Source of the DNA: Gammaproteobacteria bacterium
GTDB lineage: Bacteria; Gemmatimonadota; Gemmatimonadetes; Longimicrobiales; Gaopeijiaceae
Assembly: GCA_009840525.1 (NCBI GenBank)
Contig: VXNP01000035.1
Coordinates: 1-64,000 of the forward strand
Length of the DNA: 64,000 nt
Direction: 5' to 3'
Both the position numbers and the translations under genes were made by a program. Below are positions 5,597 to 63,400 of the stretch, one piece after another. Positions within the stretch are counted from its first letter, which is position 1; each line of letters begins with the position of its first letter. The notes under the pieces are model-generated. The model saw nothing but the letters and a program-made list of their open reading frames with translations, was not told the origin of the DNA and did no database searches.

Positions 5597-6709
5597 TTGT
5601 TACGGAAGCGCTCGACACCAAGGATACGTTCAATCATCGCTTCTGCGTTGATTGTCAAGTTTATCCTTGTCGCTTCGTGCGTACAAGCGAGCCGTGACGA
5701 TGTTCTGACCTTGACCCCGGCTGCTATTTCTAATGTCCCGTTCACCCTCAATCGTGATATCGCATTGACAAGCGACGGCTCTGTGTGCGTGATCAATTCC
5801 TTTGAGTTCCAAGTTTTCTGCACCGATCAATCTGGCAATCGGACGAGTTCTCTTGGTCGAAGGGGTGCGGGCCCTGGCGAGTTTCTACATCCCGGACGGC
5901 TCCTCCGGGGACCAAATGACACCATGGGAGTAGTTGACTTTCGTTTGAATAAAATGTCCATATTCCAACTCTCCGGCGAGTTGGTTTCTGAGGTTGGACT
6001 TCCTGGAACAATGTTCTCCCCATCTGTAACGTCTTTCGATTCATCGGTAATGGGTACTGCAATGATGCAGGTTGCCACAGATGGGCCAGAAACCCAAGCT
6101 ACCCATATGGAATTGATTGTGGCATCTGGAGAGATCGCGTGGAAGCGGATTTATCGCGCAGATCTCGTAGACTCCGGTTGTCAGCAGTCGCCACTTATCG
6201 ACGGGTTAGTTAATGGGGTGTACTCTCCCACAGGTCAATTGGTTTTCTTCGTGTGTGATGGTCAGATGCTGTCTTTTTTGGGGCGAGATGCCCTTCCCGA
6301 CACGTTGCTCGACGCTCCTACCTATACAGCTGAGCTTCCTAATAATCGGGATTTAGAGAGTTATCGAGAGAGCTTGCGAACGACGATGAGAGCTTATGCC
6401 GGCGTTCAAGTTCGAGTGGACGCATACGGACGACGAGCGAAGCCGTATAGTCGAGGGGCGATGTTCGATGAGGTAGGAAGACTATGGGTATTGACAACTA
6501 AAGACCAAGATCTGTTCTCTTACTTGGACATCTATGAGAATGGACAAGTACATGCGGGCACTATTCGAGTTCCTGATAGAGTCGTGGGGTTTGATATTAT
6601 TGACACTACTTTAGTTGCTCTGCTCGATTGGCCTGTAGGATCCGACGATGTCGACCTTCTACAGGAAGTAAACTGGTACGACATAACTGATTTAGGTCTA
6701 GAGTGGTGA
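5597..6709 (+). CDS. Secreted 6-bladed beta-propeller (NHL-like) protein
   Basis: The 370-residue product has an N-terminal signal sequence (basic start, then hydrophobic ALIVKFILVASC, possibly a lipoprotein-type Cys). Propeller blades follow, with the recurring phrase 'SLGRRGAGPGEF' near residue 90, typical of NHL/6-bladed propellers. The start is TTG at 5597, preceded by GGAGG at 5584-5588. Base composition and codon use are clearly more AT-rich than the flanking ccm and glp genes (many TTA, ATA and AAT codons), suggesting recent acquisition. Function is probably extracytoplasmic binding; no catalytic motif is visible. It is a distant relative of the propeller at 55439-56773. Confidence 0.75.
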   Translation: MLRKRSTPRIRSIIASALIVKFILVASCVQASRDDVLTLTPAAISNVPFTLNRDIALTSDGSVCVINSFEFQVFCTDQSGNRTSSLGRRGAGPGEFLHPGRLLRGPNDTMGVVDFRLNKMSIFQLSGELVSEVGLPGTMFSPSVTSFDSSVMGTAMMQVATDGPETQATHMELIVASGEIAWKRIYRADLVDSGCQQSPLIDGLVNGVYSPTGQLVFFVCDGQMLSFLGRDALPDTLLDAPTYTAELPNNRDLESYRESLRTTMRAYAGVQVRVDAYGRRAKPYSRGAMFDEVGRLWVLTTKDQDLFSYLDIYENGQVHAGTIRVPDRVVGFDIIDTTLVALLDWPVGSDDVDLLQEVNWYDITDLGLEW

Positions 6710-43596: not shown

Positions 43597-45294
43597 GTGA
43601 GCGAATCGATCCCGGTCGGGCGGGTCATCGGGACGGACCCCGCGACGCCGCTCGAGTTCTGGGTCGCGGTGGCCGAGGGGACGTTCCTTCAGCTCGACGA
43701 CGTGGTCGTGGTCGAGCGCAGCCTCCCCGGCAGGGACGATCCGATTCGCATTTATGGGATGGTGGCCGACCTGCGCGTCCGGCACGAAGGGGCGCGCTTC
43801 GACAGCGACGTCTTCCTGATTGAAGACGGTGTGCTCCCGGCGCAGGTGACCGAGGCGGCCAAGGTGCTGGCCACCCGCTTCGAGCCCGAGGTGTTCGTGC
43901 CGCCGGTGCCCGGCCAGATGGTGCGCAAGGCCGTCGGCAAGGAGCGCGACGAGGCGCTTTTCTTCGATGGTATGGAACGCAAGGTCCCGGTGGGCCTCTC
44001 GCGCGACGACGAGGTGGTGTACGCCAACGTCGAGTTCCTGGACGGCACCCGGGGCGCCCACGTCAACATCAGCGGGGTCTCGGGGGTGGCGACCAAGACC
44101 AGCTATGCGGTATTCCTCCTGCACAGCCTCTTCACGTCCGGCCAACTCGGTGCTGGCACCCACAACACCAAGGCGCTGATCTTCAACGTGAAGGGCGAGG
44201 ATCTGCTCTTCCTGGACAAATCCAACCGCAACCTCGATCCCGAGCAGGCGGGACGCTACGCTGCGCTGGATCTCCCCGCCGAGCCCTTCCGAAGCGTGGA
44301 GCTGTGGGCGCCTCCGCGTCCCCGGGATCCCTCCGCCGCGCCCCGCACCGGAAGCCGCGCCCACGGGGTCACCTCGTTCTTCTGGACACTGGCGGATTTC
44401 TGCCGGGACGAGCTGCTCCCGTTCCTGTTCGCCGACGCCGAGGACGAGCGCCAGCAGTACACCATCGTCGTGCACAACGTGACGGCGCGGCTGCGCCGGG
44501 ACGCCACGCCTCTCGACGACGGCGGCGTGCGGATCGCGGGGACCACCTGCCGCACCTTCGGCGGCCTGATCGAAGCCATCCGCGAACGGGTGGAGGATGC
44601 TGCCGATCAGCCTGACTGGGCGGGCCGCTCCATCGGCGGCGGCACCATCAACGCCTTCGTGCGGCGGCTCTACGCGGCCCGCCGCGACGCCGAGCACCTG
44701 ATCAGGGGCGATGTGCCCAACCCGGTCAAGCACCGTATCGGCATGCAGGCGCAGGTGACCGTGGTCGACATCGCCAAACTGTCGCGGCGCGCCCAGCGCT
44801 TCGTCGTGGGGGTGGTGCTGCGCAAGACCTTCCAGGACAAGGAGGAGACCGGCTCGCGCGAGCCGCTGCTCTTCGTGGTGCTGGACGAACTGAACAAGTA
44901 CGCGCCCCGGGACGGCCGGAGCCCCATCAAGGAGATCCTGCTCGACATGGCCGAGCGTGGCCGCTCGTTGGGAGTCATCCTCGTCGGCGCCCAACAGACC
45001 GCGAGCGAGGTGGAGCGCCGGGTGATCGCCAACTCCTCGATCCGGGTGGCGGGGCGGCTGGACAGCGCGGAAGCCGGGCGTCCCGAGTACGCCTTCCTTC
45101 CCACGGCCCAGCGCCAGCGCGCCACCATTCTGAAGCCGGGCACGATGATCCTGTCGCAGCCCGAGCTGCCGGTCCCGCTGGTGCTCGAGTTCCCGTTCCC
45201 GGCGTGGGCCACGCGGCCGGATGAGGCGGGAGACGCCGATGGAGGGGAAGACGGCGGCGTTGGCGGTCCTGATCCCTTCGAGGGGCTGGAGTGA
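43597..45294 (+). CDS. herA: HerA-type DNA-translocase ATPase
   Basis: HerA is a hexameric FtsK-like translocase that works with NurA in DNA-end resection. The 565-residue protein opens with a HAS-barrel-like N-terminal region (residues ~1-95). It has an atypical Walker A, GVSGVATKTS at residues 160-169, where archaeal HerA has a GxxGxGKS form. Walker B is LLFVVLDELNKYAP near residue 425. Later motifs are GVILVGAQQTASEVERRVIANSS and a C-terminal PGTMILSQPELPVPLVLEFPFP. GTG 43597 starts it. The Mre11, Rad50 and NurA homologues that follow support the functional call more than similarity alone. Confidence 0.88.
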   Translation: MSESIPVGRVIGTDPATPLEFWVAVAEGTFLQLDDVVVVERSLPGRDDPIRIYGMVADLRVRHEGARFDSDVFLIEDGVLPAQVTEAAKVLATRFEPEVFVPPVPGQMVRKAVGKERDEALFFDGMERKVPVGLSRDDEVVYANVEFLDGTRGAHVNISGVSGVATKTSYAVFLLHSLFTSGQLGAGTHNTKALIFNVKGEDLLFLDKSNRNLDPEQAGRYAALDLPAEPFRSVELWAPPRPRDPSAAPRTGSRAHGVTSFFWTLADFCRDELLPFLFADAEDERQQYTIVVHNVTARLRRDATPLDDGGVRIAGTTCRTFGGLIEAIRERVEDAADQPDWAGRSIGGGTINAFVRRLYAARRDAEHLIRGDVPNPVKHRIGMQAQVTVVDIAKLSRRAQRFVVGVVLRKTFQDKEETGSREPLLFVVLDELNKYAPRDGRSPIKEILLDMAERGRSLGVILVGAQQTASEVERRVIANSSIRVAGRLDSAEAGRPEYAFLPTAQRQRATILKPGTMILSQPELPVPLVLEFPFPAWATRPDEAGDADGGEDGGVGGPDPFEGLE

Positions 45295-45337
45295 AGACCT
45301 CGATCCTGCTCGAAGCGCCCCCCATGACTCCGTTCTC

Positions 45338-46495
45338 GTGAAGATCCTCCACACCGCGGACTGGCATGTCGGCAAGACGCTCCGCGGACGCAGTCGGGCC
45401 GACGAGCACCGGGCCGTCCTCGACGAGATTGTCGCCATCGCCGAGCGGGAGGCCGTTGATATCGTGCTGGTCGCCGGCGACCAGTTCGACCGCGCCGTGC
45501 CCAGCCCCGAGTCGGAGGAAATCGTCTACGATGCGCTTCTGCGGCTGGCCCGCACTGGTGCCCACGTGGTCGTCATCGCCGGCAACCACGACAACCCGCG
45601 ACGGCTGGCCGCGGTCAAGCCGCTCCTGGAACTCACAAACGTCACGGCCGCGTCCAGGGTCGCGCGTCCGGACGATGGTGGCGTGGTCCGCGTCCCCACG
45701 AAATCCGGCGAAACCGCCTGCATCGCGCTCTTTCCCTTCCAGTCGAAACGCGGGATCGTGACCGCGGAGGCGCTCATGGGGGGTGACCCCGACGACCACC
45801 AGAAGGAATACAGTGGCCGCTGCCGCAAGATCGCGGCCGCGCTTTGCGAGCAATTCTCTCCCGAGACCGTCAACCTGGTCGTGGGCCACCTGACCGTGGT
45901 GGGCGCCGCGATGGGAGGCGGCGAACGGGAAGCTCACATCTTCGACTACTACCTCCCCGCGGACATCTTCCCCACCAGCGCCCACTACGTCGCCCTCGGG
46001 CACATCCACAAGCCCCAGATGATCCCCGGCAAGTGCCCCATCTGGTACGCCGGCTCGCCCTTCGCGCTCGACTTCGGCGAGGCCCATGGAGAGAACTGCG
46101 TCCTGGTCGTCGAGGCGGCGGCGAATCGCCCGGCGCGCGTGCAAGAGATCCCTCTGACGTCGGGGCGGGCCCTTCGCACCCTGCGCGGCAGCAGTCTCGA
46201 CCTGGACGCCCTGGAGGGCACGACCGGCGACGACTTCCTCCGCGTCATCGTCGAGGAGGCGCCTTCACCCGGCCTCGCCGAACGGGTCCGTGGGATGTTC
46301 CCGCATGCCGTGGACGTAATCGTGGCGCGTCCGAATGGAGCCGGAGACAGTCACGAGCCCGTCGATCCCCGCAAGCTGCGCGATCCGCGGACACAGTTTC
46401 GGCGCTATCTGAAGGAGCGCGACATCGCGGGTAAAGAGCTGGCCGGACTCTTCGACGAGCTGCTGGACGAGGAGTATGCGTCCGCTACGGCTTGA
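45338..46495 (+). CDS. sbcD: Mre11/SbcD-type DNA exonuclease
   Basis: The 385-residue metallophosphoesterase starts at GTG 45338 (VKILHTADWHVGKTLRG). Phosphodiesterase motifs in order are ADWHVG (I), VAGDQFDRAVPS (II), VIAGNHDNPRRLA (III), VVGHLTVVG (IV) and ALGHIHKPQ (V), covering the two-metal active site. A capping/Rad50-contact region makes up the C-terminal third. Mre11 acts with Rad50 on DNA ends and hairpins. It begins 43 bases after herA and overlaps sbcC by 20 bases, so the operon order is herA-mre11-rad50-nurA. Confidence 0.93.
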   Translation: MKILHTADWHVGKTLRGRSRADEHRAVLDEIVAIAEREAVDIVLVAGDQFDRAVPSPESEEIVYDALLRLARTGAHVVVIAGNHDNPRRLAAVKPLLELTNVTAASRVARPDDGGVVRVPTKSGETACIALFPFQSKRGIVTAEALMGGDPDDHQKEYSGRCRKIAAALCEQFSPETVNLVVGHLTVVGAAMGGGEREAHIFDYYLPADIFPTSAHYVALGHIHKPQMIPGKCPIWYAGSPFALDFGEAHGENCVLVVEAAANRPARVQEIPLTSGRALRTLRGSSLDLDALEGTTGDDFLRVIVEEAPSPGLAERVRGMFPHAVDVIVARPNGAGDSHEPVDPRKLRDPRTQFRRYLKERDIAGKELAGLFDELLDEEYASATA

Positions 46496-49256
46496 GCTGG
46501 AGAGCTTCACCTCCTTTCGCGAGCGGACGGAGGTGAGCTTCGAGGATACCGACCTTTTTGTCTTCAGGGGAGCGACGGGGTCCGGCAAGTCGAGCCTCAT
46601 CGACGCGATGATCTTCGCCCTCTACGGCTCGGTCCCACGCTACGACAACCGCACCCTGATCGCCCCGGTCATCAGCCAGGGCATGGTCCGCGCGAGGGTT
46701 CGCCTCGACTTCGAGGCGCGGGGCAGGACCTATTCGGCGGTCCGGGTCGTCCAGCGCACCGCTTCCGGCGCCACCACGAAGGAAGCCCGCCTTGAGGAGA
46801 GTGCGAACGGCGGTCCGGCGAAGACCCTGGCGGCGACCGAGTCCGAACTCTCGGCCTGCGTCCAGAACGACGTAATCGGGCTGGGCCTCGACCACTTCAC
46901 CAAGTGCGTCGTGCTCCCGCAGGGCGAGTTCGCCGCCTTCCTGCGGGCGAAACCCGGCGAGCGGAAGCAGCTGCTCGAGCGATTGCTTGGGCTCGGTCTG
47001 TACGAGAGGCTGCGCAAGGCGGCGAACCGGCGGTGGAAGGAAGAAGAAAACCGGGTCGCCAATCTTCAGTGGCGGCTTGAATCCGCGCTGACTCACGCGA
47101 CCTCGGACGCCGTTCGCGACGCCGAGACCCGCGTCGCGACGCTGGACGGACTTAGAGAGCACATCGACGGCGTTTCGGGCAAGCTGATGGAGTTCACTGT
47201 GGCGATCGAGGCCGCGGACGAGCGGTGGTCGAAGGGCGCCGAGCAGGTGGAGCTGTTGGCGGAGGTCTGCGTTCCGGAGAGCATGGCCGAACTCGCGACC
47301 GCGCACAGGGAAGCCGAAAGGGAACTCCGCCGGGCTTCCGAGGCCCGCGAAGCCGCAGCCGCGAGCTTGCGCGCCGCCCAGGCGACGCGAGCCGCGTTGC
47401 CGGAGAGGGCAGCCGTTGACAAGGTCGTGAAACAGAGGGCGGATCTGGAGCGCCTGGACACGGAGATCGATCGCACCCGGACCGAGCTGAATGCGGCGGC
47501 CGAGACCGCTGCCGAAGCTGTTGCGAATGACAAGTCGGCCCGAGCGGAGCTCTCGAAGGCCCGGGATGCGCGAGGGCGGCTCCCCGGGAAATCGCAGCTT
47601 GAGGGCGTCCGCGAGAAACGGAAGCAGCTCTCCAGCACGGAGGACGACATCGAGCGCGCAGGCCGTGACCTTGGGCTGGCCGAACAGGCGTACACCGCGG
47701 CGCACGGCCGAAAATCCGAAGCCGATCGGGCGATGGAGGCCGCCGCGCGGGCGTTTGAAGCGCTCCGCGTAGCGCACAGCGCGGCCGATATGGCTCACCA
47801 CCTGGAGGAGGGCAGGCCGTGCCCGGTCTGTCTCCGGAATGTGGCCCATCTCCCCGACCACGACGTTCCCGAGGACCTGGACGCCGCTCGAGAGCGGAGG
47901 AAGGCGACGAAAGACGAAGCAGCCCAGGCCCGTGCCGAAAGGGATCGCCGCAGGTCGGCGCGGACCGCCTGTGAGACCACCCTGAAGCTCCGCGTGCAGT
48001 CGGCTGAATCCCTGCGAGAGTCCTTGTCCGGGTCTCCCACGGACGAAGAGATCTCCGAGCTGATGGCCGAGATCGCAGCGAGCGAAGCCCGCATCGAGCG
48101 CTTGGCGCGCCGCGTTGAGGAGGCGGCCGGAGAGCGAGCGGAGTCGGACGGCCGGCTGAAGAGCGCCAGCGCGACGCTGAGGCAGCAGAAGGCCTTCGCG
48201 GCGAACCTGAGAGCTGACCTGCAAGAGGCTCCCACCCCGGAGGAAACCGCCGCCCTCCTGGAGGCTATCGGCTCGGCGGACGAGTCGTTGCGGAGGGCGG
48301 GCGTGGAAGAGGAGCCGGCGCGGCGGGCCCACGAGCACGCGAAGAAGGAGCTGGAGCGGGAGCAGACGCGCCTGGATGCCGCGTGGTCGGAGTACCGCGC
48401 GGTTCGCGATGTCGTAGCCGAGATGAAGCCGCCTGCTTCGGTCGAGGGTAACCTGGCCCGCTCCTGGACAAGGCTGTCGGAATGGGCCGACCGGAAGTAC
48501 GGGGCAACGCAGGAGGCGATGGCCCGGGCGGACGCGGCGCGGAGGGCTGCCTCCTCGGGAAAGGACGGCCTCGATGCCCGGCTCCGGGAACGGTGCGGTC
48601 ACGATGGCCTCCCCCTGGGACCCGAAGAAGATCCCGCGAAGAAGTGCGCGGAAGAGCTGGGAGCCGCCCGCAAGGGTCTCGATCATCTTCGCGAAGCCGC
48701 ACGGGAGAGAGAGAGCGTCGAGGAGCAGCGGAAGCAGGCGCGCCAGCACTCGCTGGTCGCTCGGGACCTCGGCAACCATCTCAATGCCAGGAACTTCGGC
48801 GCCTGGTTGCAGAATCAGATCCTGGCCTGGCTGGTCCAGGGGGCGACGGCGCGGCTGCGGGAGCTCTCCAGCGGCCAGTACTCGCTGGATCTCTCCGGAA
48901 AGAACGAATTCCTGGTGATCGATCACAGGAACGCCGACGAGCCGCGCCTGGCGAAGACGCTGTCCGGGGGCGAAACCTTTCTGGCCTCGCTGGCGCTTGC
49001 TCTCTCGCTGGCGGAGCAGGTGGCTGAACTGGCGGCGCGCGGGAGCGCGAAGCTCGAGGCGCTTTTCCTCGACGAGGGCTTCGGCACGCTGGACTCGGAG
49101 ACGCTGGATGTAGTGGCGGCCACAATCGAGCAACTCGGCACCGAGCGCATGGTGGGGATCGTCACCCATGTGTCCGAGCTGGCCGACCGTGTTCCGGTCC
49201 AGTACCGGGTGAAGAAGGTGGGAAACTCGTCCTCGGTGGAGCGGGTCGAGACGTGA
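46476..49256 (+). CDS. sbcC: Rad50/SbcC-type SMC-like ATPase
   Basis: The 926-residue protein has an N-terminal ABC half with ESFTSFRERTEVSF and Walker A GATGSGKSSLIDAMIFAL near residue 34. Long coiled coils meet at a zinc-hook CPVC near residue 448 (in GRPCPVCLRNVAHL). The C-terminal half has signature LSGGETFLASLALALSL near residue 830 and Walker B KLEALFLDEGFGTLD. The complex with Mre11 tethers and processes DNA ends. The start overlaps sbcD by 20 bases and the stop overlaps nurA by four. The protein is somewhat shorter than E. coli SbcC (~1050). Confidence 0.93.
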   Translation: MRPLRLELESFTSFRERTEVSFEDTDLFVFRGATGSGKSSLIDAMIFALYGSVPRYDNRTLIAPVISQGMVRARVRLDFEARGRTYSAVRVVQRTASGATTKEARLEESANGGPAKTLAATESELSACVQNDVIGLGLDHFTKCVVLPQGEFAAFLRAKPGERKQLLERLLGLGLYERLRKAANRRWKEEENRVANLQWRLESALTHATSDAVRDAETRVATLDGLREHIDGVSGKLMEFTVAIEAADERWSKGAEQVELLAEVCVPESMAELATAHREAERELRRASEAREAAAASLRAAQATRAALPERAAVDKVVKQRADLERLDTEIDRTRTELNAAAETAAEAVANDKSARAELSKARDARGRLPGKSQLEGVREKRKQLSSTEDDIERAGRDLGLAEQAYTAAHGRKSEADRAMEAAARAFEALRVAHSAADMAHHLEEGRPCPVCLRNVAHLPDHDVPEDLDAARERRKATKDEAAQARAERDRRRSARTACETTLKLRVQSAESLRESLSGSPTDEEISELMAEIAASEARIERLARRVEEAAGERAESDGRLKSASATLRQQKAFAANLRADLQEAPTPEETAALLEAIGSADESLRRAGVEEEPARRAHEHAKKELEREQTRLDAAWSEYRAVRDVVAEMKPPASVEGNLARSWTRLSEWADRKYGATQEAMARADAARRAASSGKDGLDARLRERCGHDGLPLGPEEDPAKKCAEELGAARKGLDHLREAARERESVEEQRKQARQHSLVARDLGNHLNARNFGAWLQNQILAWLVQGATARLRELSSGQYSLDLSGKNEFLVIDHRNADEPRLAKTLSGGETFLASLALALSLAEQVAELAARGSAKLEALFLDEGFGTLDSETLDVVAATIEQLGTERMVGIVTHVSELADRVPVQYRVKKVGNSSSVERVET

Positions 49257-50269
49257 AGCGCTTCGAATCCCTCGCCATCGAAGGCTGGTCCCCGGAGTAC
49301 GGCTCTCCGGTCGAGATGGAGCGGGAGGAGATCCCGGCCGAGCAGGTGGACGCCGGCGTGGAACTTCCCGAGGGCGAATGGCGCCCGCTTCCTTCCGACG
49401 AAGCCGAAGCTGTCCCCGGGAGGGTCTACTTCATCGACGGCGTGCGCCGAATCGAGGCGCGCGTCTGGATGAGCGCCGCGGGTGACCCCAGTCTCGGGAT
49501 CTGCGCCTCGTACGCCGCCGGGATGGTACGTTGCGGCCGCAAGGCCGAGATCGTGGCGGCGGAGGTGCGCCGCGGGTTCTTCGGACGGGCCGGGGTCCCG
49601 GACTTGGTGACCCGGGTGGGGACCTTCGCCGCGAGCCCGGTGGCGGAGGACGACATCCAGCAACTCATCAACGGCCTGCAGGAGCGCATGGGCCAACTGG
49701 AGGTCAAGGTTGCGGGTGGGTGGGGCGCCACGCGATCGCGTGGCCGTTCGGCGCGCGTCGGCCTCGGCTCGGATTCCAACGGCGCCAATCCCCCTCTGCA
49801 TCCTGGTGCCCTGATGCTGATGGACGGCCCCCTGCGCGGCGGCCAGCGCATCCCGGGAGCCATCGGCTACGTGAAGACCCACCGCGTCCAGTACCTGACC
49901 GGGGCTGCGCGCGCGGTGGTGGCGCGGCTCGCCGCCCGGGAGCGGACTCCCCTGTTCCTCATTCAGGCGAAGTGGACGCGATACTCGTGGTATCTGCGCC
50001 TCACGGAAGCGCGGGGGCACCCCTGGGCGGGCATCGTCCGCTGCGAAGCCTGGCCGGAGACGGAGCTGGAGCAGGTGCGGAAGATCGCGGACGCGACGGC
50101 GGTGGTGTTGCCGCGCTTCGCCTCCGAGCCCCACAAGGACGACCGGGCGCCCCAGAACCTTTACCCGATCGCCGGGCTGGAGCGTGAACTTCACCACAGG
50201 CTCGGGGATCGCGGAGTCGTGTTCCGGGCGCTTCATCAGGCGGCAAGGGCGTACCGGGCGACCGGTTGA
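49253..50269 (+). CDS. nurA: NurA-like nuclease
   Basis: The 338-residue product matches the NurA layout. An N-terminal Asp lies in a beta strand (VYFIDGVRRIEARVWM near residue 64), the central LMLMDGPL acidic motif is near residue 183, and a C-terminal conserved segment contains GYVKTHRVQYL with basic residues. NurA is an RNase H-like 5'-3' nuclease that HerA drives during resection in archaea. The call rests on this motif pattern plus the operon: it starts at GTG 49253, overlapping rad50 by four bases. It ends the operon. Confidence 0.8.
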   Translation: MKRFESLAIEGWSPEYGSPVEMEREEIPAEQVDAGVELPEGEWRPLPSDEAEAVPGRVYFIDGVRRIEARVWMSAAGDPSLGICASYAAGMVRCGRKAEIVAAEVRRGFFGRAGVPDLVTRVGTFAASPVAEDDIQQLINGLQERMGQLEVKVAGGWGATRSRGRSARVGLGSDSNGANPPLHPGALMLMDGPLRGGQRIPGAIGYVKTHRVQYLTGAARAVVARLAARERTPLFLIQAKWTRYSWYLRLTEARGHPWAGIVRCEAWPETELEQVRKIADATAVVLPRFASEPHKDDRAPQNLYPIAGLERELHHRLGDRGVVFRALHQAARAYRATG

Positions 50270-50349: not shown

Positions 50350-50664
50350 ATGAAGACGATCAAGACGACCGTGTACCTGAATGCCGCCGACTATCGTACG
50401 CTCAAGTCGCTGGCGGTCGATCAGAAGCGTTCGGCGGCGGAACTGGTTCGCGAAGCGGTGGCCGAGTACGCGGCTCGGGCAACCGAGCGTCGATGGCCAC
50501 GGTCCATCGGCATGGGAGACAGCGGCGTCGCCGACCTGGCCGAGCGGTACGAGGACATGATGGACGGCTTCGGTGCGGAGGGTCTCGCGGTTCCGGAGGA
50601 TACCGGAAGCACTCCGGCCGAAGAGCACCGCCCGCACCCTGAGTCCAGGGATCCGATCCCGTGA
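50350..50664 (+). CDS. vapB: VapB-like ribbon-helix-helix antitoxin
   Basis: The 104-residue protein starts MKTIKTTVYLNAADYRTLKSLA, a classic RHH N-terminal strand and helix. It continues with SAAELVREAVAEYAAR. The Asp/Glu-rich C-terminal half probably wraps the toxin. The ATG at 50350 is chosen because the operator lies just upstream; a longer frame from 50266 would be initiated inside nurA. The stop overlaps the vapC start (GTGA). Confidence 0.85.
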   Translation: MKTIKTTVYLNAADYRTLKSLAVDQKRSAAELVREAVAEYAARATERRWPRSIGMGDSGVADLAERYEDMMDGFGAEGLAVPEDTGSTPAEEHRPHPESRDPIP

Positions 50665-51077
50665 TCGTGGCCGACACCAGTGCCCTGCTGGGACTTCTCG
50701 ATCGGCGCAGTCGTTCCCACGGAGCCCTGGCCGAGGCGTTCCATGCCTGTCGTGACCGATGGGTGTTGCCGTGGGCGATTCTTCCCGAGTTGGACTACAT
50801 GATTCCCCGGACACTCGGCGCCGCCGTGCACAGGGCATTCCAGGCCGATCTGGAGGAGCGTCGCTTCGCCGTCGAATGGGGTGGCTGGGCCGACGTGCGG
50901 AGGGCGCTGGAGCTCGACCGCGCCTATGGCGGCCTCTCGCTCGGGCTGGTCGACGGGGTCGTCATGGCGGTAGCGGAGCGGCTGGAAGCGGAGGCGATCG
51001 CGACCCTGGATGTGCGCGACTTCGGAGCCGTCAACCTGAAGGGCCAGCCGGCGATCTGGCCCCGGGACCTACGCTGA
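50661..51077 (+). CDS. vapC: VapC-like PIN-domain toxin
   Basis: PIN toxins cut specific RNAs, often tRNAs. The 138-residue protein shows the acidic active-site set: IVADTSALLGLLD (first Asp) at the N-terminus, ILPELDYM (Glu near residue 43), LVDGVVMAVAERL (third acid) and TLDVRDFGAVN (fourth). GTG 50661 overlaps vapB by four bases, as usual for toxin-antitoxin pairs. It follows the herA-nurA operon directly. Confidence 0.88.
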   Translation: MIVADTSALLGLLDRRSRSHGALAEAFHACRDRWVLPWAILPELDYMIPRTLGAAVHRAFQADLEERRFAVEWGGWADVRRALELDRAYGGLSLGLVDGVVMAVAERLEAEAIATLDVRDFGAVNLKGQPAIWPRDLR

Positions 51078-57036: not shown

Positions 57037-57774
57037 ATGGCGATTGATCTTGCAGACCACGAGAGAAAAGCACGCGACGCGGTCAAGACGTTCTGGAGGA
57101 GCCGTGAGCGGGCTCGGCGGAAGCAAGCGGACACGCGCCTGCCGGACCAAGGGGAACGGGCAAGCGTGACGGCGGGCAAGAACATGGATGGGTTCATCGA
57201 ACTCGTTGTGGATCTCGTGAGGGCCAACGGTCTTCAGAATGCCTCGATTCACTTGGAACGCGCCCTTCTGACCCTTCCCGGCTTCTTCCGGCCCACCAAG
57301 CTGTGGGATCTGATTGTGCTCAACGAAGGTCGTCTGGTGGCGGCCATCGAACTGAAGAGTCACGTCGGGCCGTCGTTCGGAAACAACTTCAATAACCGGG
57401 CGGAAGAGGCCATCGGGAGCGCGTGCGACTTGTGGACGGCCTACAGGGAGGGGGCGTTCGGCGACCACCCACGACCGTTCGTGGGTTGGCTGATCCTCGT
57501 CGAGGACGCACCGGGCTCCCGGAGCGCGGTGCGAATCCGGTCGCCTCATTTCCCGGCGTTCCCCGACTTCGAGGGTGCCTCGTACCTGAAGCGGTACGAC
57601 TTGCTTTGCCGACGGCTGGTCAAGGAGCAACTCTACACGACAGCGGCGGTGATCTCGTCTCCCAGATCGGCCGCCGAGACGGGAGAGCACGGAAGCCTCT
57701 CGGTGATGTCGGGGCTGAAGACCTTCGTGACCTCTCTGGCGGGTCACGTAGCCGCCGAGGCGGCCCGGACCTGA
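57037..57774 (+). CDS. Type II restriction endonuclease, PaeR7I/XhoI family
   Basis: The 245-residue protein follows the XhoI/PaeR7I pattern closely: [37 protein letters not shown], then the PD-(D/E)xK nuclease core with Asp in KLWDL and Glu-Leu-Lys in [26 protein letters not shown], and [13 protein letters not shown]. Members cut CTCGAG, so that specificity is predicted. ATG 57037 starts it. It converges on the methyltransferase gene, with only 10 bases between the stops. No control-protein gene is seen. Confidence 0.9.
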
Positions 57775-57784
57775 AGCGCGAAAG

Positions 57785-58816
57785 CTACTGCGCTACAGGC
57801 CGCCCGCTGTTGGAATCGAGAGCCCCGATCCGCACGTCCACCGTGCGCAGCAGGCTGGCAGCCTCGCCCAGCATTCGTTGGACCGCCTTGCCGTGGTACA
57901 CCGGGTCGACTTCGATTCCGATGCTGTTGCGGCCGGTGGCGGCGGCTGCGACTTGAGTCGAGGCCGTTCCGGTAAAGGGGTCGAGCACGGTGTCGCCAAC
58001 GAAGCTGAACATCCGAATCAGGCGATCCGCGAGTACGACCGGATAGGGCGCGGGGTGATCGCGTGTCGACGCTCCCGGGATGTCGCTCCAAATCTGGCGG
58101 AAGTGAGTCTTGAAGCTGGCCTCTGGCAGCAGGGAGAGCGTCCGCGCGGCTTGGGTCGGCTTTCGGTAGCCGCCCGGCTTTCTCTGCATCAGGATGAACT
58201 CGATGTCGTTTTTGATGACGGCGTTGGGCTCGTAGGGCTTGCCCAGGAATCCGGCGGAGCCTCTCTGCACTTCATGGGCGACGTTGGCGATCTTGTGCCA
58301 GATGATCGGTGCCAGATTGTCGAATCCGATCCTTCGGCAGCGGTCCTGAATCGAGGCGTGGAGGGGAACCACGGCGTGTCGACCGTTTCGCCGTCGCGAT
58401 AGACATACATCTCCCACCACGCAGATCAGCCGTCCGCCGGGGACGAGTGCCCGATGGGACATGCGCCAGACGGCGTCCAACTCGTCGAGAAACTCCTCGT
58501 AGTCGGCAATCCAGCCCAACTGCCCCGAGGTTCGACGATACTCCTTGAGCGTCCAGTACGGTGGAGACGTGAGGACGAGGTGAACCGACTCGGCGGGCAG
58601 GACCGCGCGGCGCGCGTCCCCCAACAAAACCTGATGGTGTGACGGCACCTGCTCGACAGCGGCGGCGATTAACGCCATGCTCGGCGGATCCTTCGCGAGG
58701 CGCGGCAGATCGCGGGCGGGGTCGTCCAGATCCCGAAGGGGTTCGGGAACCAAGTCGTCGAGCGGTGGCGTGACGCTCATTTGCTTCTTGGACGCGGAAA
58801 CGGCGTTCATCTTCAC
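57785..58816 (-). CDS. DNA methyltransferase, beta-class (N4-cytosine or N6-adenine)
   Basis: The 343-residue enzyme has the catalytic motif LVLTSPPYW near residue 85 (motif IV) ahead of the cofactor motif VLDPFTGTASTQVAA near residue 285 (motif I), i.e. the beta order. SPPYW is more often found in N4-cytosine enzymes. It pairs tail-to-tail with the XhoI-type nuclease and must protect its site. Classical M.PaeR7I, as I recall, is a larger gamma-class N6-adenine enzyme, so the pairing is unusual. The first ~45 residues are a variable extension. Confidence 0.9.
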   Translation of the reverse strand: MKMNAVSASKKQMSVTPPLDDLVPEPLRDLDDPARDLPRLAKDPPSMALIAAAVEQVPSHHQVLLGDARRAVLPAESVHLVLTSPPYWTLKEYRRTSGQLGWIADYEEFLDELDAVWRMSHRALVPGGRLICVVGDVCLSRRRNGRHAVVPLHASIQDRCRRIGFDNLAPIIWHKIANVAHEVQRGSAGFLGKPYEPNAVIKNDIEFILMQRKPGGYRKPTQAARTLSLLPEASFKTHFRQIWSDIPGASTRDHPAPYPVVLADRLIRMFSFVGDTVLDPFTGTASTQVAAAATGRNSIGIEVDPVYHGKAVQRMLGEAASLLRTVDVRIGALDSNSGRPVAQ

Positions 58817-62242: not shown

Positions 62243-63400
62243 CTACCCGATGTAGTCGTTCCACCCCTGCATGACTTCGGCCCGTCGCGCCAGCAGGTCG
62301 GAGCGCTGGTAGGCCTGAACGACTTGGCTTTTCGGAACATGGGCGAGGCAAGCCTCCGCGACCTCCGCCGGGATGCCCGACTCGGCCATCCACGACCGGG
62401 CGCTCGACCGGAACCCGTGCAGCGTCGAGTCCACCCCGGCACGCCGAAGCACCCGGAGTGGAGCCTTCGACGGAAGCGGCCCGCCGGTCCGCGACGGGAA
62501 CACCAGCGACGACTTGCCCGACAGCTTGCGAGCCCGTCCGAGCACGTCGAGCGCGCCCGTGTTCAGCGGGACGGCAAACTCGCGGCCCGCCTTCATCCTC
62601 GAAGCGGGGATCGTCCACACGCCCGCGTCCATGTCGATCTCGTCCCAGCGCGCCCCGCGCGCCTCTCCAGGCCGAACCGCCGTCAGCACGATCAACTCGA
62701 CGCACGGAACCGCCGAAGGGTGCGTGTCGCTGGTCCCGCGAACCGCGCGGAGCGCGGCCCCGACCTCGCTGTGCGGGAGCGCGCGATGATGGCTCGTGGT
62801 GTTCCCGTTCACCTTGGGAAGCGCTTCGACGGCCCGGTCGACCGGGTTGTCCGGGCGGTAGTTCCGACCGATACACCAGCGAAACACGGCGGCGATCCGG
62901 TGCCGGGCCTTCCGCGCCGCGGCGGGCTTCGAGTTCCAGATCGGCGACAAGCAGCGCAGCACGTCCGCGCTCTCGATCCGGTCCACCCGCTTGTCGAGGA
63001 GCGGGGCGGCATGGAGGCGGAAGGTGGACTCCCACTGCTCGGGAAGCGGGCTCCCCTCCTTCCACGCCTCGCGGTGAAGCTCGATCGTCCGCTCGGCGGC
63101 CTCGGCGAAGGTCGGGACGCCGCGTCCGCGCGGGTCCTGGCCCAACAGGACGCCCCGGCTGTTGTCCAGCGCCTTCTGGCGGGCCTCGGCAAGCGTCACC
63201 TCGGGATATGGCCCGAGTCCGATCGAGGTGAGCCGCCCCTCGATCCTGACGCGCTGCCGCCACGTCTTGGTGATCCGGCCGTCCAGTGTCCGGTGTACGC
63301 GAAGGCTCAGCCCGCGTCCGCCGCGTCCGTCGCCGTAGACTCCGGGTCGGCTGACCGTTCGCACGAAGGCGGCGCTCAGCGTCCTCGGTCGCTTCGTCAT
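62243..63400 (-). CDS. int: Tyrosine integrase (P4-like)
   Basis: The 385-residue recombinase has an N-terminal arm-binding DUF4102-like domain (GRGLSLRVHRTLDG, SIGLGPYPEVTLAEARQKA). A SAM-like core-binding domain follows (residues ~105-200), then the catalytic domain with Arg in TAVRPGEARGARWDEID, His-x-x-Arg in LHGFRSSARSW, a His in CLAHVPKS and the nucleophile Tyr in VVQAYQRSD near the C-terminus. It starts MTKRPRTL after AAGGATGG. Its upstream region repeats, inverted, in front of the second integrase at 63987. Confidence 0.94.
   Translation of the reverse strand: MTKRPRTLSAAFVRTVSRPGVYGDGRGGRGLSLRVHRTLDGRITKTWRQRVRIEGRLTSIGLGPYPEVTLAEARQKALDNSRGVLLGQDPRGRGVPTFAEAAERTIELHREAWKEGSPLPEQWESTFRLHAAPLLDKRVDRIESADVLRCLSPIWNSKPAAARKARHRIAAVFRWCIGRNYRPDNPVDRAVEALPKVNGNTTSHHRALPHSEVGAALRAVRGTSDTHPSAVPCVELIVLTAVRPGEARGARWDEIDMDAGVWTIPASRMKAGREFAVPLNTGALDVLGRARKLSGKSSLVFPSRTGGPLPSKAPLRVLRRAGVDSTLHGFRSSARSWMAESGIPAEVAEACLAHVPKSQVVQAYQRSDLLARRAEVMQGWNDYIG

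Follow-up and report, generated by a model that had tools for sequence, protein, structure and literature searches.

The end-resection operon of archaea has an apparent counterpart in a stretch of bacterial DNA, which raises the question of what its genes encode, where they came from, and whether they serve repair or defence. Within the 64,000-nucleotide window (the whole stretch of DNA that we analyzed), positions 43597–50269 hold four tightly spaced genes, herA, sbcD (mre11), sbcC (rad50), and nurA, all on the forward strand. They form a herA-nurA-sbcDC operon of bacterial type, which we consider likely to resect or process DNA ends beside AddAB.

Identity and layout of the four genes

All four reading frames are those chosen by a codon-usage gene caller. 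The herA gene (43597–45294, GTG start, 565 aa) encodes a HAS barrel and a RecA-like ATPase, with a Walker A motif (GVSGVATKTS) at 44074–44103 and a Walker B motif (VVLDELNKYAPR) at 44875–44910. A Pfam search of HerA returned no match; its homology to Deinococcus radiodurans HerA (drHerA) is near full-length (E = 1.3e-149). The Walker A motif had been singled out, in a sequence-only reading of this DNA, as a departure from archaeal HerA, but it is not anomalous: the ATKTS form is ordinary for bacterial HerA, and drHerA reads GISGVATKTS. In that protein, K175 and T176 of the motif contact phosphate and magnesium (PMC9960219). When we mapped the residues that are important by mutation or structure in drHerA (PMC9960219), K175, T176, K217, D220, D487, E488, R495, R513, and R552 were all conserved in the window HerA (as K167, T168, K199, D202, D430, E431, R438, R456, and R495, respectively), so that it has the Walker A lysine and threonine, the Walker B DE pair, the arginine finger, and the translocation arginines of the Deinococcus-type enzyme. 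Only R96 and R154 are not kept, and an R96A substitution in drHerA causes no defect (PMC9960219). The protein groups with an end-resection HerA instead of with the non-repair DUF87 ATPases, a grouping that had been named as a possible objection. A defence-type ATPase was likewise considered and dismissed, the defence HerA models matching only weakly and below their cut-off.

The sbcD gene (45338–46495) encodes 385 aa from a GTG at 45338; the longest open reading frame begins at an ATG at 45221, but homology and the codon-usage caller favor the GTG. Its phosphodiesterase motifs (DWH, GDQFD, GNHD, GHL, and GHIH) are all intact, as expected of an SbcD metallophosphoesterase; it matches TIGR00619 (E = 2.7e-55) and is the sole match to that model in the source genome. 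The sbcC gene (46476–49256, 926 aa) matches TIGR00618 (E = 9e-71) and encodes an ABC head with a Walker A motif (46569–46595), a Q-loop, the LSGGE signature (48960–48974), and a Walker B motif (49062–49085), together with a CPVC zinc hook of the CxxC type (47820–47831). The nearest solved homologues of both proteins are those of Escherichia coli SbcCD, with archaeal Mre11 and Rad50 scoring lower.

The nurA gene (49253–50269, 338 aa) passes the Pfam NurA model narrowly (22.1 bits against a cut-off of 21) and matches D. radiodurans NurA (drNurA) with an E-value of 1.8e-21. Its residues D62, K208, and R298 are equivalent to the catalytic-site residues D53, K201, and R309 of drNurA. An AlphaFold model (pLDDT 85.6, built on a 41-sequence alignment) was ranked by Foldseek closest to drNurA (E = 2.3e-18), then to Thermotoga maritima NurA (E = 2.3e-14), and then to TdpB. 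As judged from this predicted structure, the protein has the NurA fold, and fold and catalytic residues together are those of a Deinococcus-type NurA; the relatedness to NurA, on which the sequence-only reading had staked its proposal, is upheld. For all four genes, the homology lies far beyond chance and bears out the original naming.

The same reading had called the genes overlapping or closely spaced. Overlaps are indeed present between sbcD and sbcC (20 nt) and between sbcC and nurA (4 nt), whereas herA and sbcD, given the likely sbcD start, are separated by 43 nt. A search for Rfam families found none within the operon. Genes that we named smc-like and aroF-like from their translations lie 5' of it, and a VapBC-like toxin-antitoxin pair (50350–51077, forward strand; RHH protein 50350–50664, PIN protein 50661–51077) follows on the nurA side. 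This pair accompanies the operon within the genus and is probably not part of the resection machine; it lies 3' of nurA in the window and in the gap between sbcC and nurA in three congeners (G009, G003, and G005; loci L025, L026, and L028).

Two other parts of the window differ from those of close relatives. The region 55.2–64 kb could not be aligned to G010 or G008, two relatives, and holds an XhoI-type restriction endonuclease (57037–57774, forward strand; Pfam E = 4e-94), a DNA methylase (57785–58816, reverse strand), a tyrosine integrase (62243–63400, reverse strand), AlpA, and MobC/NikA; it looks like an integrative element with a restriction-modification system. A region at about 5.1–6.8 kb, of lower GC content (58% at 6–8 kb), is unaligned in both close relatives and contains an open reading frame of 370 aa (5597–6709).

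Source genome, distribution, and transfer

The source genome (3.99 Mb, 98% complete) belongs to the Gemmatimonadota, as identified by its relatives: the nearest named ones are Gemmatimonadota metagenome-assembled genomes (MAGs), one labeled as the BD2-11 clade and one as Gammaproteobacteria, the latter label being probably wrong. An AddAB pair sits on another contig of this genome, comprising an AddA of 1156 aa, which joins a UvrD-type helicase to a PDDEXK nuclease domain and matches the AddA model (E = 4e-68), and an AddB-like protein of 1139 aa that also has a PDDEXK domain. A search of 59 genomes found RecC in none of them. Because AddAB is present as well, the operon replaces nothing, contrary to the suggestion that it stands in for AddAB or RecBCD, and a second resection machine therefore needs a reason.

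The operon is not the bacterial rarity that it had been taken for. Scanning some 85,000 species genomes gave at least 542 confirmed relatives, the best 80 of which are mostly from Actinomycetota (Acidimicrobiia, Nitriliruptorales, and Micromonosporaceae), with a few from Gemmatimonadota, Bacteroidota, Acidobacteriota, and others. The order herA-sbcD-sbcC-nurA on one strand is found in 52 of 55 loci with enough sequence, mostly actinomycetotal; the other three have no recognisable nurA. At the Actinomycetota loci L082, L084, and L060, the gene 3' of sbcC is not recognisable as nurA. Copies on plasmids are few (6 in 72,556 plasmid records) and include one on a conjugative cyanobacterial plasmid and one on a Chlorohelix plasmid with ImmA/IrrE and TIR genes in its vicinity. 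On a 452-kb Streptomyces plasmid (NZ_CP134205.1, locus L149), the four-gene operon adjoins an ImmA/IrrE peptidase gene and genes that we take to be Wadjet-type from their matches to TIGR02680, TIGR02678, and DUF2397. Viral contigs yielded a single relative, 30% identical.

Within the phylum, such a HerA occurs in 150 of 249 sampled genomes, each with one form only by our tally. Form A, that of the window, accounts for 16 of the 150 (one of these only 57% identical), form B for 13 (41–52% identical), and form C, about 33% identical, for the rest. In the loci examined, nurA lies 5' of herA in forms B and C and comes last in form A, and some form B genomes have herA-nurA with no sbcDC nearby (L132 and L148). 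Presence is patchy in the family of the source genome. In the HerA tree (a quick search, unrooted and with some long branches), the form A of this family is nested in a group dominated by Actinomycetota, with B and C as separate groups, and the SbcD tree gives the same A/B/C grouping. Since the family's A-type HerA falls inside the Actinomycetota group and the phylum mostly carries a different form, form A probably entered the family by transfer among bacterial phyla. The parts of the operon can also be exchanged, because one genome (G018, locus L030) is a hybrid in which A-type herA-sbcD-sbcC has a B-type nurA upstream.

The idea of a transferred machine thus holds for exchange between bacterial phyla and fails for an archaeal source. 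As had been noted, the gene order is archaeal-like, matching the listing of the mre11 operon of Sulfolobus as herA, mre11, rad50, nurA (PMC4351679), and this match is what favors a recent acquisition of an archaeal operon. All four proteins, however, have bacterial nearest homologues, with archaeal Mre11 and Rad50 far weaker, and such an acquisition is highly improbable. No archaeal end-resection HerA was found among the HerA matches. An archaeal origin was rejected on homology, the proteins not being of archaeal type.

Replacement of the sbcDC block and of whole operons

What is new here concerns evolution, namely replacement of an sbcDC block and in-place swaps of whole operons between forms A and B, which are 40–50% identical. 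Compared with congener G010, the window is 69% identical in DNA within a forward-strand block at 45827–48912 (the best two breakpoints) and 94% identical elsewhere in the operon. In 400-base steps, identity is 63–80% at 46.0–48.8 kb and 85–99% in all other alignable steps; AddAB, taken as a control, is 82–99% identical between the same genomes. In comparison with congener G008, most of the block stretch is 97–100% identical over a background of ~95%. The block covers the 3' half of sbcD and most of sbcC, and thus the C-terminal half of Mre11 and the N-terminal head, coiled coil, and hook of Rad50. The clade obtained from HerA, AroF, and NurA is rejected by both the SbcC tree (AU p = 0.001) and the SbcD tree (AU p = 0.0005); only NurA supports this clade well, and SMC is undecided on it. 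From these alignments and trees, we conclude that the block is a replaced segment and that sbcDC has diversified by homologous replacement. The genus is known from draft assemblies throughout, which favors an assembly or binning artefact, but the divergent allele group recurs in five genomes (G010, G004, G009, G003, and G005) with intact flanks, and the tree conflict speaks against it as well; we regard an artefact as very improbable.

Exchange on a larger scale is seen in genus g25, where an operon of form A (genome G210, locus L136) and one of form B (genome G112, locus L130) occupy one chromosomal site. The flanks are 88–89% identical in DNA right to the operon edges and encode proteins 92–98% identical, and the operons themselves do not align except for one patch of 67% identity. 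The B operon at L130 is preceded by a remnant, made up of the upstream sequence of an A-type herA and its first 16 codons, whose frame closes with a stop after 23 codons; the remnant at L129 is weaker and has decayed further. The A-type remnant before the B operon indicates that, most likely, a B operon took the place of an A operon in the L130 lineage.

Predicted function and relation to known systems

In the mechanism that we propose, SbcCD would recognise double-strand ends that are blocked or capped by a hairpin and would open them. A hexamer of HerA and a dimer of NurA (6:2) would then thread onto the DNA end and translocate along the duplex powered by ATP, with NurA cutting the 5' strand so that RecA receives a 3' tail, the whole working alongside the AddAB of the same cell. 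Every catalytic step is a prediction; that the complex forms, which strand is cut, and how SbcCD would pass ends on to HerA-NurA are taken from biochemical work on D. radiodurans and archaea. The drHerA-NurA complex resects the 5' strand (PMC9960219), the Rad50-Mre11 complex of Sulfolobus binds HerA (PMC2288612), and herA, mre11, rad50, and nurA are all essential in that organism (PMC4351679). Weighing against this model, deletions of herA or nurA in Deinococcus and Thermus have modest or contradictory phenotypes (PMC9960219), and a 2026 study argues that the HerA-NurA of Thermococcus kodakarensis degrades the two strands alike and may have an antiviral role (PMC12977600).

The operon could alternatively be dual-use or mainly anti-phage, with SbcCD and HerA-NurA degrading foreign linear or unprotected ends and with swaps of sbcDC alleles and of whole operons evading phage inhibitors of SbcCD-type nucleases. 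The patchy presence, in-place swaps of form, and hypervariable sbcDC would be expected of conflict genes more than of a core repair system, and the relic left by an A/B exchange points the same way, as do the plasmid copies in their conjugative, Wadjet-type plus ImmA/IrrE, and ImmA/IrrE plus TIR contexts. HerA-Sir2 and HerA-DUF4297 have defence activity (PMC12977600), and the fold of NurA has a distant match in TdpB. Against this, the operon HerA is near-constant across large parts of the phylum, it matches the defence HerA models weakly, the operon is without a Sir2 or DUF4297 partner, and the lone viral relative is remote; relaxed constraint on the coiled coil and ordinary recombination may also speed the change in sbcDC. 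The gene neighbors do not back a dedicated defence role, which the sequence-only reading had left open: 120 flanking genes in other genomes, counted with no background control, gave only scattered defence matches, the plasmid copies being the exceptions, and the commonest neighbor families are mostly for metabolism or transport, as for a housekeeping operon. We hold a dual-use or mainly anti-phage role to be rather unlikely, but it is the main alternative. An arms race in which the operon both resects host breaks and destroys phage ends, with phage inhibitors driving exchange of sbcD/sbcC and of whole operons while AddAB stays stable, is to our minds an unlikely scenario too. Resection or processing of DNA ends beside AddAB remains the preferred reading, and the in-place swaps offer a natural experiment on repair, defence, or both.

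In the openly licensed literature, we found no account of the Actinomycetota or Gemmatimonadota operons and one earlier case of all four genes in a bacterium, Oceanithermus profundus (PMC5448004). The results correct the view in that literature of bacterial HerA-NurA as mainly a matter of Deinococcus-Thermus: an operon of these four genes is common in bacteria and occurs here together with AddAB, and the linkage within it suggests that HerA-NurA cooperates with SbcCD outside archaea too.

Among known systems, E. coli SbcCD provides the closest solved homologues of the window SbcD and SbcC, and we know of no linkage of it to herA or nurA. In HerA-Sir2, HerA-DUF4297, and TdpAB, too, a nuclease is paired with a motor of the HerA family, and TdpB resembles NurA distantly in fold, but their partner proteins are others and the sequence match is weak. 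The archaeal operon of Sulfolobus and Thermococcus shares the four functions and, by the Sulfolobus listing, their order; it differs in that the window proteins are of bacterial type, and the NurA-HerA proteins of archaea and bacteria are less than 20% identical (PMC9960219). D. radiodurans HerA-NurA (7F6D, 7WRW/7WRX; PMC9960219) is alike in the ATKTS Walker A and key residues of HerA and in the fold and catalytic residues of NurA. Its genes, however, are treated as a two-gene nurA-herA operon without sbcDC, which the window operon includes, and Deinococcus-Thermus is without AddAB or RecBCD (PMC9960219), unlike the source genome. The bacterial nurA-hepA-sbcD-sbcC cluster of O. profundus (PMC5448004) has the same four genes as the operon in the window, with sbcD and sbcC 3' of hepA as in forms B and C, whereas form A of the window places nurA last.
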